From positions 1 to 64,000 of the forward strand of contig QFXH01000002.1 of assembly GCA_003402345.1 (NCBI GenBank): a DNA stretch of 64,000 nt. Direction: 5' to 3'. This document shows positions 39,999-44,963 of this stretch, piece after piece. Positions within the stretch are counted from its first letter, which is position 1; each line of letters begins with the position of its first letter. The position numbers were made by a program, and so were the translations under genes. Origin of the DNA: Candidatus Nitrotoga sp. MKT (GTDB lineage Bacteria; Pseudomonadota; Gammaproteobacteria; Burkholderiales; Gallionellaceae). The notes under the pieces are model-generated. The model was given only the letters and a program-made list of their open reading frames with translations, was not told where the DNA came from and searched no databases.

Positions 39999-41111
39999 TT
40001 AAACAACGCCAGGAATAAAGCGATATTTTACTTTCTGACAGTATTGGTCGTAGGTATCGTCCACGCTGCGCAGGTGATCTTCCTCGGTTAACGCACGCAT
40101 ATAGTAAATGACCGACCAGCCAAACATAGAACCAACCGTCATCAAAATAGCCGTCAATGAAGTCTGTATAGCCAAGATTAACGCCGGTCCCAGACCAATC
40201 CACCAAGCTAAATTTTTACAAACATATGCCGGATGGCGGATAAAACGATACGGTCCGTGCGCAATAATGCCGCGATGGGTGAGATTACTAGCTTTGAAAT
40301 TGAGTGCAACGGATGCCGATGTATAGATTGCCATCAGCGCCAATAACAATACATTGGCAACCACATGGAAAACTGGGTGATCGAAATGCGGAAAGTCGGC
40401 AGAATACCCGCCGCCAAAAATTTGGCTGGTCAGGTCGTTAAATGGAGGATAACAGGCCAGTGCGACAGTCCAGCCCAGCAGGGTAGGGTCAACCGAGCGA
40501 ATTTCGTTATTCAGCACCGGTAGTTCAATCAGATAGCCAATAGTAAAGAAAACTACATCCAAAAACAGGATTAATTTAAACAGGAACCAGAATCCATGAT
40601 CATTGAACAACGCCATCCAGTCCGTTACTGGCTTCCCCCAGGCTGCCAGTAACGCACTCCCATTGCTCAACATGAGGGCCGTGTGGTCAAACAGCCAAAC
40701 CACCATCAGTGGGGCAAAAAAAGCTTTCAGCAAGACACTGAGCAACCCCAACCGTTCGTCCGCGGGTAAGCCCGTTCGCCAAGTAACCTGCGGTGAAAAT
40801 ACCAACCGCTTCAGCGCGCGCAGACAGAGAATGGACTTAGAAATACCGGGGGTCTTTTCGCTTAGGTAAAACACCATTAACAAGAACACATAACCTAAGG
40901 TAACTGTCAGTAACACTTGCCACCGAGTGAAATCTTCAGCAAAGAAGTGTGTGTGAGCAGAAAAATAGTGCTGAAAGTATGGAATGGCGGCATAAAAAAC
41001 ACCAACGGCCACGATCAGTAGCAATGAAACAGACAGGTTTTGCAGCCGCTGAATAAAAATAGGAGTGTTGATAATAGCCATACTGGAATAATCAAATTCA
41101 TGGCAGGCCAT
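39999..41111 (-). CDS. Isoprenylcysteine-carboxyl-methyltransferase-like membrane protein
   Basis: A 370-aa polytopic protein with about eight to nine membrane helices. The C-terminal segment HRGIIAHGPYRFIRHPAYVCKNLAWWIG, then DTYDQYCQKVKYRFIPGV, is the ICMT/PEMT-like methyltransferase signature (GPYRFIRHPxY). The bacterial substrate is unknown. A later ATG at 41081 is possible. It ends 54 bp before the frameshifted methyltransferase, so the two probably form an operon. Confidence 0.8.
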   Translation of the reverse strand: MACHEFDYSSMAIINTPIFIQRLQNLSVSLLLIVAVGVFYAAIPYFQHYFSAHTHFFAEDFTRWQVLLTVTLGYVFLLMVFYLSEKTPGISKSILCLRALKRLVFSPQVTWRTGLPADERLGLLSVLLKAFFAPLMVVWLFDHTALMLSNGSALLAAWGKPVTDWMALFNDHGFWFLFKLILFLDVVFFTIGYLIELPVLNNEIRSVDPTLLGWTVALACYPPFNDLTSQIFGGGYSADFPHFDHPVFHVVANVLLLALMAIYTSASVALNFKASNLTHRGIIAHGPYRFIRHPAYVCKNLAWWIGLGPALILAIQTSLTAILMTVGSMFGWSVIYYMRALTEEDHLRSVDDTYDQYCQKVKYRFIPGVV

Positions 41112-42232: not shown

Positions 42233-42254
42233 AAAAAAGCGCCCCGAAGGGCGC
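42233..42254 (-). terminator. Terminator after the S8 peptidase gene
   Basis: On the minus strand gcgccc-ttcg-gggcgc forms a perfect 6-bp stem with a UUCG tetraloop followed by six U. It starts 27 bp after the subtilase stop codon. A textbook intrinsic terminator. Confidence 0.93.
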
Positions 42255-42280
42255 CTAATCAGTCCGCAAAAACTGGCTAT

Positions 42281-44143
42281 CTATTTATAAATCGTTACGG
42301 TCTTGCTGGTTGTGTTATTCGCAGCATCGTATGCTTGTACAGTTGCAATATGTGCACCTTTGGCTATGTTGCGGGTATTCCAGTTGTAACTCAAAGAGCT
42401 GCCATAAGCGGTGGCAACTTGTTTGCCGTCGATGCTAAGGACGATTTTGGCGACGATCTGGTTATCGGTAGCTGTTACATTGACAGACTGTTTATTGGAG
42501 ACTGTCATCCCATCCACCAAGTTGAAGCTGCTGATTACGGGTGCAACGGTGTCACTGCCAATGGTTACCGAAACGGTGGGTGAAAGGCCCGCGTTACCTG
42601 CCGCGTCATAAGCATAAGCGACGAGGGTGTAAGCACCGTTCGGAAGTGCTGAAACATCCCAGGAAAAAGCAAAGGGCGCAATATTGTCAGTAGCAAACTT
42701 TTGGCCGTTAACATATAGCACGACACTGGTTACTCCAATATTGTCGGAATAACTTACATCGACCGGAACACTACCGGACACCTTGCTGCCTACCGGAGAG
42801 GTGATAAGAATAGCGGGTGCCTGGGTATCCAGGCTGATTGCTGTTTTAATGATTGATTGAGCGGCTGCCACGGCTTTTGCTGCATCAACCCGGCCCGCGC
42901 CATAATAAGCATCGTAGCCAGCTGCACCCAAATCAAGTGCAGTAGCTTTGAGAATCTGGTCAATATCAACAGGACTGATGTTGTTGTTGGCCGAGATCAT
43001 CAGCGCGGCTGTCGCTGCCACAATGGGACTGGCAAAGGAAGTTCCCCAGTTAGTGGAATAGCCACCACCCATGGAAGGTGCGAAAATGTCTACGCCAGGG
43101 GCAGCAATGTCAACATAATTGCCGTAACTCGAAAAACTAGCGCGTAGATCGTTACTGTCGGTGGCGGCCACGCTCAGCATGGAATCGTTCGCAGCAATAT
43201 CTACAAGTCCGCTGCTGTTACCTGCTGCGACCACTACAACGCCGCCTTTGCTGCGCATATATTGCGCGGCAGACTGGACGGCGGCACTGCCAGAGAGATT
43301 ATCGAAACTGACATTGACAACTCTGGCGCCGTTATCTGCTGCCCAATTGATACCTTGTGCCACGATGCTCCAGGTTGCAAATCCATCGGGTGAGCTGATG
43401 CGCACCGGCATAATTTTCGCGCCCCAGGCGACGCCTGCACTGCCGTTGCTATTGTTGGCTGCCATTGCCGCTGTACCGGCCACCTTGGTACCATGTCCGA
43501 TAACATCACTCGTGTTGGAATTGTTATCGTAAAAATTCCAACCGGGCACTATATTGGGTGCCAGATCAGGGTGGGTGGCATCAATGCCGGTATCCAGAAT
43601 GGCTATAGTCACGCCGCTACCGTTGGCACTGTCCCAACTAGATGGTGCTTGGATTTTTGGCAGTGCCCAACTGTAACTATAGTAGGGGTCGGTTACGGAT
43701 GCTGCATGGGTAACTACCATATCCAATTCTACATATTTTAGTCTAGGGTCTTTTTTCAGCTCGCGCATAACTGCCACTTCATCGGTACCTTCCGGCAATT
43801 CGACTATGTGGGTATTGATTTTTTTGAGGTGGATTCTGGATTTTCCGTTGTGGGGCTTCAATGCATTTTCAAATTCACCAGCGGTTAAACCAGCGCGTGG
43901 TGCAATTAGCAAACGGCCTTTTGCCCAACCAACAAAGGCTTGTTTGCCGATAGGCCCGGCATTTTGTGCAACCGCCAGCCCCGCTCCCTGAGCAGAAGCA
44001 GATGGTGCAGCATGGGTTAAACCGGCACACCCTGCCAAAATGGCAGCCAGAAGAAGCGAACGTGCGAAGCTAGGCGTGGCACTGGAATGATCGCAACGGT
44101 GGTTGTCAGACAATTGAACTGGAAATTGATGTTGGCGTGGCAT
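42281..44143 (-). CDS. Secreted subtilisin-like serine protease (S8) with Ig-like domains
   Basis: A 620-aa exported protease. A long signal region (about 1-46) ends in LAAILAGCAGLTHA, which contains a possible lipobox (LAGC, Cys39) as well as an AxA-type site. An I9-like propeptide (LLIAPRAGL to KYVELD) is followed by the S8 core with Asp184 (ILDTGID), His217 (GHGTKVAGT), Asn309 (AAGNSSG) and Ser369 (GTSFASP). Two bacterial Ig-like domains (each starting IxITSPV/VISSFN with DNIGVTSV/DNQIVAKI) form the C-terminus. AAGGAGT precedes the ATG at 44143. Expression is predicted to depend on the c-di-GMP riboswitch upstream. Confidence 0.93.
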   Translation of the reverse strand: MPRQHQFPVQLSDNHRCDHSSATPSFARSLLLAAILAGCAGLTHAAPSASAQGAGLAVAQNAGPIGKQAFVGWAKGRLLIAPRAGLTAGEFENALKPHNGKSRIHLKKINTHIVELPEGTDEVAVMRELKKDPRLKYVELDMVVTHAASVTDPYYSYSWALPKIQAPSSWDSANGSGVTIAILDTGIDATHPDLAPNIVPGWNFYDNNSNTSDVIGHGTKVAGTAAMAANNSNGSAGVAWGAKIMPVRISSPDGFATWSIVAQGINWAADNGARVVNVSFDNLSGSAAVQSAAQYMRSKGGVVVVAAGNSSGLVDIAANDSMLSVAATDSNDLRASFSSYGNYVDIAAPGVDIFAPSMGGGYSTNWGTSFASPIVAATAALMISANNNISPVDIDQILKATALDLGAAGYDAYYGAGRVDAAKAVAAAQSIIKTAISLDTQAPAILITSPVGSKVSGSVPVDVSYSDNIGVTSVVLYVNGQKFATDNIAPFAFSWDVSALPNGAYTLVAYAYDAAGNAGLSPTVSVTIGSDTVAPVISSFNLVDGMTVSNKQSVNVTATDNQIVAKIVLSIDGKQVATAYGSSLSYNWNTRNIAKGAHIATVQAYDAANNTTSKTVTIYK

Positions 44144-44217
44144 GTCAGACTCCTTAGTTATATTAATCGTCTGCTGATAAAGCAAATGAACACACCAAGG
44201 ATATAAAGCCTGAGCAT

Positions 44218-44288
44218 TCTGGTAACTCCGCTATCTCTTTCGAGACCGGAAGCTTTGCGTCCCCACCTCGCGATGAGTTTGCCTTTTT
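44218..44288 (-). ncRNA. Cyclic di-GMP-I riboswitch (GEMM-I)
   Basis: On the minus strand the aptamer reads aaaaaggcaaactc, then ggtggggacgcaaagc, then ttccgg, then a tetraloop hairpin tctc-gaaa-gaga, then tagcggagttacc. The invariant GGCAAAC, GGGACGCAAAGC-UCCGG and AGCGGxGUUACC blocks of the GEMM-I class are all present and in order. It ends about 75 nt before the ATG of the S8 peptidase on the same strand, so it should control that gene. No obvious terminator lies between them; control could be at ribosome access. On/off polarity is not evident. Confidence 0.93.
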
Positions 44289-44963
44289 CAGCTATTTAAT
44301 AAATCGACAATCTTTTGGCAAACTTTAGGGTATAAATAAAAAAATTCCCATAAAATTTTCGGGGAGGCATTCATTTAATAATGAATGCAAAATAGTTACC
44401 CAAGATGGTAATGGCTTATTAAATAGATCGGGTAGCAAAGGGGCTGACTTCAGGATTCCTAGAGCTTATTTGCAAACGCAGGCAGTTATCTTCCTTCGAA
44501 AATTGTTGTTGAAATGCTGGTAAACATGCCAGCGTTTCAACAAGAAAATATAAGCAAAATATATGCCATAAAATATAAAAATTCATTTAAACAATTACTT
44601 GTATATTTATATGGATATTTTTAAATAAATGATCAGTTATAAAATCAATAATAAGTGTCTGTTTTTGCAGACAGTATTTTTTAAAATTATTTAACATATT
44701 GATTAATAAATTTAATTTTTGTCGTAAGAATGAAACACTCTCGCGCATAATGCGCGATGAATCGCTTTAGAGAATCAGTATTAGCAACACTTTTGCGGCG
44801 AGATGTTCTTTCAGCATAAGTTGTCGATTGATCCATCTCGGATAGCATGGTTTCGGAAGCAGATTGGCGAAGCAGGTTATGAATTCACAATCAATTCACA
44901 CCATGTATTGATGGCTTGAAAGTGTTCCTTAAAGCCCGGATATTGGTTCGTTGAAATGGCGTA
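44289..44963. other. AT-rich region with hairpins and an IS5 fossil
   Basis: This long gap between the subtilase and the Sel1 gene has no intact gene. Besides the riboswitch and the IS5 fossil it holds three hairpins. gcattcatt-taat-aatgaatgc is at 44367-44388. A 15-bp stem with one G-U pair is at 44506-44543 (ttgttgaaatgctgg / ccagcgtttcaacaa). A 17-bp palindrome, tcgcgca-taa-tgcgcga, is at 44741-44757. The subtilase promoter must lie upstream of the riboswitch here. Confidence 0.6.
44761..44919 (+). pseudogene. IS5-family transposase fossil
   Basis: One plus-strand frame reads ALENQY, a TAG stop, then QHFCGEMFFQHKLSIDPSR and IAWFRKQIGEAG. This matches the N-terminal region of IS5-family transposases (ENPYWQHFCGE-FFQH-LP-DPSSL-RWRKRIGEAG). 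The conserved Trp codon has become TAG, and similarity ends soon after GEAG at a TGA (44917-44919). Only about 45 residues remain. This family makes 3-bp TNA target duplications like the one flanking the MITE near dnaB. Confidence 0.75.

Follow-up and report, generated by a model that had tools for sequence, protein, structure and literature searches.

In Candidatus Nitrotoga sp. MKT, the gene for a secreted S8 subtilase is preceded by a class I c-di-GMP riboswitch, and this pairing is real and conserved. Combined with a sigma-28 (FliA)-like promoter, the riboswitch would form a two-input control element for the protease, consisting of the FliA promoter and a c-di-GMP OFF switch; we favour this reading, with some reserve. 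The riboswitch class itself is known, and what is new is the two-input arrangement and the gene lineage in which it occurs. The window analysed was a stretch of 64,000 nt (contig QFXH01000002.1, positions 1 to 64,000), and all coordinates given below refer to it.

The protease gene (42281..44143, minus strand) encodes 620 aa. Its product matched PF00082 over 288 of the 288 profile positions (E 6e-53), and the D, H and S motifs (LDTGID, GHGTK and GTSFASP) were visible in the translation, the domain and the motifs together placing it among the S8 subtilases. A Fervidolysin-type prodomain and two Big_7 Ig-like stretches were also identified, and thermitase (1thm) was the top match among solved structures (E 1.3e-56). 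Export of the protease is suggested by its N-terminus, where a hydrophobic stretch that ends in THAAP was seen by eye. The closest homologs, with 76–88% identity, came from Candidatus Nitrotoga (CP45, HW29, LAW, 1052 and M5) and an uncultured Nitrosomonadales MAG. Just past the stop codon, a consensus match revealed a terminator-like hairpin of eight pairs followed by a T tail (42237..42256, minus strand), so that the gene is probably monocistronic. The neighbouring PEP-CTERM gene, which the original prediction had put forward as a partner, sits beyond this hairpin. Among the six same-genus loci (L044–L049), all with 3.3 kb or more of downstream sequence, a PEP-CTERM homolog (E ≤ 1e-5) was present in one (L045). 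The search of 37 further loci, several with short flanks, found none. Based on the hairpin and the recurrence in one of six same-genus loci, the partnership was rejected as unsupported. A DUF1295/ICMT-like gene (39999–41111) was also observed near the protease, as it was in L044, L045 and L046 and in the distant loci L078 and L086.

The aptamer occupies positions 44217..44293 on the minus strand. The RF01051 covariance model matched 44293–44218 with 66.7 bits against a gathering threshold of 35 (E 7e-13), and this was the sole match at E ≤ 1 in the 2.7-Mb genome, with 150 of 262 first-look candidates scored. A c-di-GMP-I aptamer in the leader of an exported-looking subtilase, as originally predicted, was thereby confirmed. 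The span first proposed for it (44143–44288) included the leader and the aptamer but missed the first 4–5 nt of the latter, and the aptamer does precede the protease ATG, at a distance of 73 nt and not 75. The P2 and P3 helices were both present in the structure line of the cmscan alignment, and the GNRA loop on P2 was read by eye as GCGA. Weak sub-threshold Rfam matches, such as DapZ, were treated as chance.

The family named by cmscan for the window was RF03167 (c-di-GMP-I-GGC), which matched 44292–44217 with 64.5 bits (gathering threshold 59, E 6e-13), in an output that omits one lower-ranked clan mate. The same family was named for 14 of 15 close homologs, and the RNA might on this account be a ligand variant that senses something other than c-di-GMP. 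The two families belong to one clan, the bit score being higher for RF01051 and the E-value lower for RF03167. The consensus of RF03167 reads GACGCGAA where that of RF01051 reads GACGCAAA; judging from the former, the G in GACGC[A/G]AA would be the defining change of RF03167, and 'GGC' would refer to positions 20, 47 and 92. This G-for-A change is absent from the window aptamer, which has the A and reads GACGCAAA, and the same motif was present in all 16 leaders compared. In what we take to be the Vc2 numbering, the equivalents of G20, A47 and C92 were all found in the window aptamer, and the consensus of RF01051 and RF03167 also placed them there. These three residues of Vc2 contact c-di-GMP (PMC4744006). 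With an A at the variant position and the contacts present, the GGC label reflects how the models score, and the RNA is expected to bind c-di-GMP. The ligand-variant claim was rejected on the A and on the higher bit score of RF01051, and we regard a different ligand as highly improbable.

The pairing of the aptamer with the protease was then followed through related genomes. The protease was detected (E ≤ 1e-60) in seven of 158 family genomes, all of the window's genus, and the aptamer lay upstream of it in all seven. From public genome contigs, 43 loci (L044–L086) aligned over much of the protease, and 42 were testable once L063, with 4 nt upstream, had been dropped. A class I aptamer on the same strand and no more than 370 nt from the aligned start was found in 31 of the 42. 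These comprised all 15 Nitrotoga- and Thiobacillus-type loci, where it lay 62–76 nt before the aligned start, and 16 of the 27 more distant homologs, including those of Nitrosospira, Nitrosomonas, Thauera, Rubrivivax and Azohydromonas. An upstream aptamer was missing from the remaining 11 (L058, L062, L064, L066, L073, L074, L075, L076, L081, L082 and L085), and L075 had one elsewhere in its locus. A further 13 loci (L087–L099) stood outside the 42, and the five of these that were scanned (L088–L092) had no aptamer. The recurrence in 31 of 42 testable homologs makes the pairing a feature of the protease lineage and not of one genome. RF01051 matches as such were present in 106 of the 158 family genomes, but the 28 aptamer loci of other genera that were inspected stand upstream of other genes (an ORF was found in 25 of the 28).

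Several of the other aptamers in the genus and family were inspected for the genes behind them. In one Nitrotoga genome (G009, L003:807-2391), an aptamer precedes a secreted-looking metalloprotease (Reprolysin_4, E 1.4e-16); with the window subtilase, this makes two unrelated protease families behind a c-di-GMP-I switch in the genus. In L004 and L014, also Nitrotoga, the aptamer and a strong sigma-28-like promoter (score 19.6) precede a short decayed ORF, which at its start is similar to the L003 metalloprotease. Two further Nitrotoga genomes (L007 and L011) have the aptamer before a lipoprotein-like protein, which in L007 contains an IgGFc_binding domain (E 3e-68). In another genus of the family (L017), the gene behind the aptamer encodes a membrane protein in which ankyrin repeats accompany a class III nucleotide cyclase domain (PF00211, E 7e-20). 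Cyclase-like genes resembling it by eye lie behind the aptamers of L021, L030, L032, L033, L036 and L042, and Pfam was run on one of the seven proteins (L017); at these loci c-di-GMP may be connected to a second cyclic nucleotide. Additional c-di-GMP-I matches were seen within protease-homolog loci (L053:6915-6991, L075:8698-8784 and, weakly at 36.8 bits, L083:6611-6694). A second, near-identical aptamer of genome G012 (L009, G012:C43) lies at the extreme end of a contig and is either a duplicate or an assembly fragment.

Upstream of the window aptamer, at a distance of 8 nt, is the element TAAAGTTT-N11-GTCGAT, composed of a sigma-28-like -35 box TAAAGTTT (44320..44327, minus strand) and a -10 box GTCGATTT (44301..44308, minus strand). 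The E. coli FliA consensus is TAAAGTTT-N11-GCCGATAA, and the two boxes at their 11-nt spacing agree with this consensus. A related FliA-like motif, TTAAG-N16-CCGATA, appears in another study (PMC3627812). Based on the -10 position, transcription would start near 44296–44293, and a start downstream of 44218, which would have spoken against the original prediction, looks unlikely. FliA is encoded in the window's genome (TIGR02479, 270.8 bits, cut-off 189.6). Of 19 Nitrotoga genomes, 14 had a FliA match above the cut-off, among them every one of the seven that carry the protease.

The strict pattern TAAAGTTT-N11-GNCGWT gave six exact matches in the 2.7-Mb genome compared to two for a reversed-pattern control. 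When the first same-strand ORF of at least 70 aa was taken as the gene following each match, the five other matches were found to precede FlhD, MotA, FlgM, a NIT-domain ORF and a response regulator with PAS. The match before the NIT-domain ORF (L145, G000:C4:9557; first 300 residues scanned) puts a sigma-28-like site upstream of a nitrate/nitrite sensing domain in a nitrite oxidiser. A promoter matrix derived from these five other strict sites only gave scores of 16.6–17.1 for the Nitrotoga protease leaders and 10.3–14.9 for nine Thiobacillus-type leaders, which have a related sigma-28-like element at an equal distance. The 24 family aptamers of other genes that were scored all gave 9.9 or less (24 of 28; L016, L030, L032 and L039 were left out by an orientation test). 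Among the distant protease leaders, only three of 16 exceeded 10 (L065, L070 and L079), and the sites in L065 and L070 lie 26 nt from the aptamer. The scores of random windows were 9.7 at the 1% level, 10.4 at 0.5% and 17.1 at 0.1%, the top of this control being inflated because it includes real sites.

A sigma-70-like pair, TTGCCA-N17-TAAATA, can also be read by eye in the window, and the gene could be driven from this promoter and not from the sigma-28 element, with the aptamer nonetheless real. Such a reading draws on the loose sigma-28 pattern, which was not enriched in the genome (74 hits against 94 in the control), and on the promoter scan, which did not list the pair but could not have listed TAAATA since it required a T at the last position. 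Across the seven orthologs, however, the sigma-70-like -10 drifts, while TAAAGTTT, GNCGAT and the spacer length were invariant in all seven, and the pair was rejected on this difference. The five other strict sigma-28 matches all stand before motility, chemosensing-like or signalling ORFs, and the recurrence of the related element in the nine Thiobacillus-type leaders likewise argues against sigma-70. Control from the sigma-70-like pair is therefore distinctly unlikely, and the sigma-28 promoter is likely to drive the riboswitch-protease leader.

Between the aptamer and the start codon, no transcription terminator was listed on the coding strand, and termination was rejected as the expression platform. 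The platform alone folds to a hairpin of -19 to -23 kcal/mol in seven Nitrotoga leaders, and the Shine-Dalgarno sequence (SD) is buried in it. On the minus strand, the outer 5' strand UCAGGC (44208..44213) pairs with GUCUGA and the anti-Shine-Dalgarno strand UCCUUGG (44195..44201) pairs with CUAAGGA, the 3' strand CUAAGGA-GUCUGA (44145..44157) including the SD AAGGAG (44155–44150); in LAW the inner part is rearranged. The hairpin covering AAGGAGT that had been looked for since the original prediction was found by this folding. An alternative pairing of 13 pairs was identified between the aptamer 5' arm, GCUGA..AAGGCAAA (44277..44292, minus strand), and an anti-aptamer strand, UUUGCUUUAUCAGC (44173..44186, minus strand). 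The arm of most Thiobacillus-type loci reads CCUG..GGGCA, and the anti-aptamer strand has a corresponding change (UGCCC..CAGG). In L053, CAG pairs with CUG where the other loci have CUG with CAG, though its own shuffle p was 0.23.

The arms paired better with the platform of their own clade than with that of the other, the energies being -15.1 versus -10.7 and -15.6 versus -11.7 kcal/mol, a comparison of in effect two clades. Shuffling of single leaders gave p values for the arm/anti-aptamer pairing of 0.002–0.052 in Nitrotoga and 0.010–0.338 in the others. With shuffled platforms, a test that covered eight of the 16 leaders, the arm pairing was unusual for the window, L045, L048, L049 and L055 (1–4 of 200) and weak for L050, L051 and L056 (19–33 of 200). 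Pair counts inside Nitrotoga gave no two-sided change in either helix, nearly all pairs being invariant, and 16 distant homologs gave no signal for the anti-aptamer (mean z -0.02). Support for both the sigma-28 element and the anti-aptamer is so far limited to the Nitrotoga and Thiobacillus-type loci. Folding of the growing transcript without ligand showed the mean pair probability of the anti-aptamer to peak at 0.8 or above in 15 of 16 leaders before the SD was made. At full length, once the SD is made, the anti-aptamer was lost in six of the seven Nitrotoga leaders.

The original prediction had left the polarity open, and it was approached here by constraining the folds. With the aptamer 'locked', meaning that arm and core were barred from pairing, with P1 unpaired and no ligand or tertiary energy, the unpaired probability of the SD was 0.00–0.02 in six of seven Nitrotoga leaders. 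With the anti-aptamer forced, it was 0.20–0.45 in all seven. An SD that is closed in the first state and freer in the second predicts an OFF switch. In the unconstrained, ligand-free model the SD was already closed in five of the seven, and the anti-aptamer ensemble lay 0.5–6.7 kcal/mol above the unconstrained one; the switch would for these reasons need kinetic trapping, the ON state being a kinetic one. From the folds, the Nitrotoga riboswitch probably acts during transcription and turns translation OFF.

The closed SD of the ligand-free ensemble would also suit an ON switch or another mode, in which c-di-GMP increases production of the protease or affects the stability of the RNA, and the SD hairpin is a default opened by ligand or ribosomes. 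The nine Thiobacillus-type leaders also lend themselves to this reading, their SD exposure having no consistent contrast between the locked and anti-aptamer states, and so do the distant homologs that have an aptamer and lack the anti-aptamer, which imply that other platforms must exist in the protease lineage. Against it, no pairing was found in which a bound aptamer opens the SD, the SD staying closed with the locked aptamer in six of the seven Nitrotoga leaders, and the anti-aptamer precedes the SD in nearly every leader of the growing-transcript series. An ON switch or other mode was on balance considered unlikely, and the OFF switch was retained for Nitrotoga.

The proposed mechanism for the OFF switch is as follows. 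Sigma-28 (FliA) would transcribe the protease gene in flagellated cells, with the RNA beginning near the aptamer 5' end. Without c-di-GMP, the anti-aptamer strand (44186–44173) would pair with the aptamer 5' arm (44292–44277) before the SD is made, delaying the SD-sequestering hairpin (44213–44195 with 44157–44145), and the protease would be translated. With c-di-GMP, the aptamer would keep its own arm, the SD hairpin would form and translation would be OFF. Synthesis of the protease would accordingly be confined to motile cells with low c-di-GMP and cease when they settle. The window's genome contains 20 GGDEF matches. Speculatively, we consider the most likely role of the protease to be the release of surface or matrix proteins as cells detach.

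A broader reading, offered tentatively and with rather more doubt than the control element itself, is that FliA and the c-di-GMP OFF riboswitch in series form an AND-NOT gate, a conserved unit in nitrifying and sulfur-oxidising Betaproteobacteria that would allow the subtilase only in motile, low-c-di-GMP cells. The protease would then be a candidate detachment protease and a Gram-negative counterpart of zmpI. If this is true, the motility programme and the sessile second messenger converge on a single leader, which controls an exported protease and not an adhesin or flagellum. There would also be a direct link from c-di-GMP to extracellular protein turnover in nitrite oxidisers, organisms that are important in biofilms and water treatment. 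The original interpretation is in part supported: the aptamer in the protease leader and the hairpin covering AAGGAGT were borne out, the PEP-CTERM partner was not, and matrix or surface-protein turnover as the output stays speculative. It had included neither the sigma-28-like promoter nor the anti-aptamer, and neither the wide conservation nor the GGC label of Rfam.

Among the matches listed in the open-access literature, a scope that excluded the original GEMM papers and supplements, there was neither a c-di-GMP riboswitch before a subtilase nor one behind a FliA promoter on an mRNA. Vc1 and Vc2 of Vibrio cholerae have the same aptamer class and contact residues as the Nitrotoga RNA but different downstream genes; Vc1 is reported to have no apparent anti-SD or terminator, and the mechanism of Vc2 is reported as unknown (PMC4744006). 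In Bdellovibrio, FliA-like promoters are described for many genes of the attack phase, proteases and other non-flagellar genes among them, and the c-di-GMP-riboswitch RNA merRNA is massively produced in the motile attack phase. The merRNA, unlike the Nitrotoga leader, has no conserved downstream ORF, and its table row carries no FliA promoter mark (PMC3627812).

Closer parallels are found in Clostridioides difficile. Cd1 (flgB) is a class I OFF switch whose ligand-free fold competes during transcription, forming transiently and later refolding, as is predicted in Nitrotoga (PMC6366702, PMC9262584). Cd1 works via a terminator, whereas the predicted target in Nitrotoga is the SD. The zmpI mRNA, encoding PPEP-1, a protease that releases surface proteins, has a class I riboswitch and is negatively regulated by c-di-GMP (PMC6366702). 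The two proteases differ in that zmpI encodes a zinc metalloprotease in the Bacillota and the Nitrotoga gene an S8 subtilase in the Betaproteobacteria, the families being unrelated. For zmpI, the available text reports no sigma-28 element, and its adhesin targets are known (PMC6366702). As a class I switch on the mRNA of an exported protease that c-di-GMP represses, the mode predicted in Nitrotoga, zmpI is the closest precedent in the sources available.
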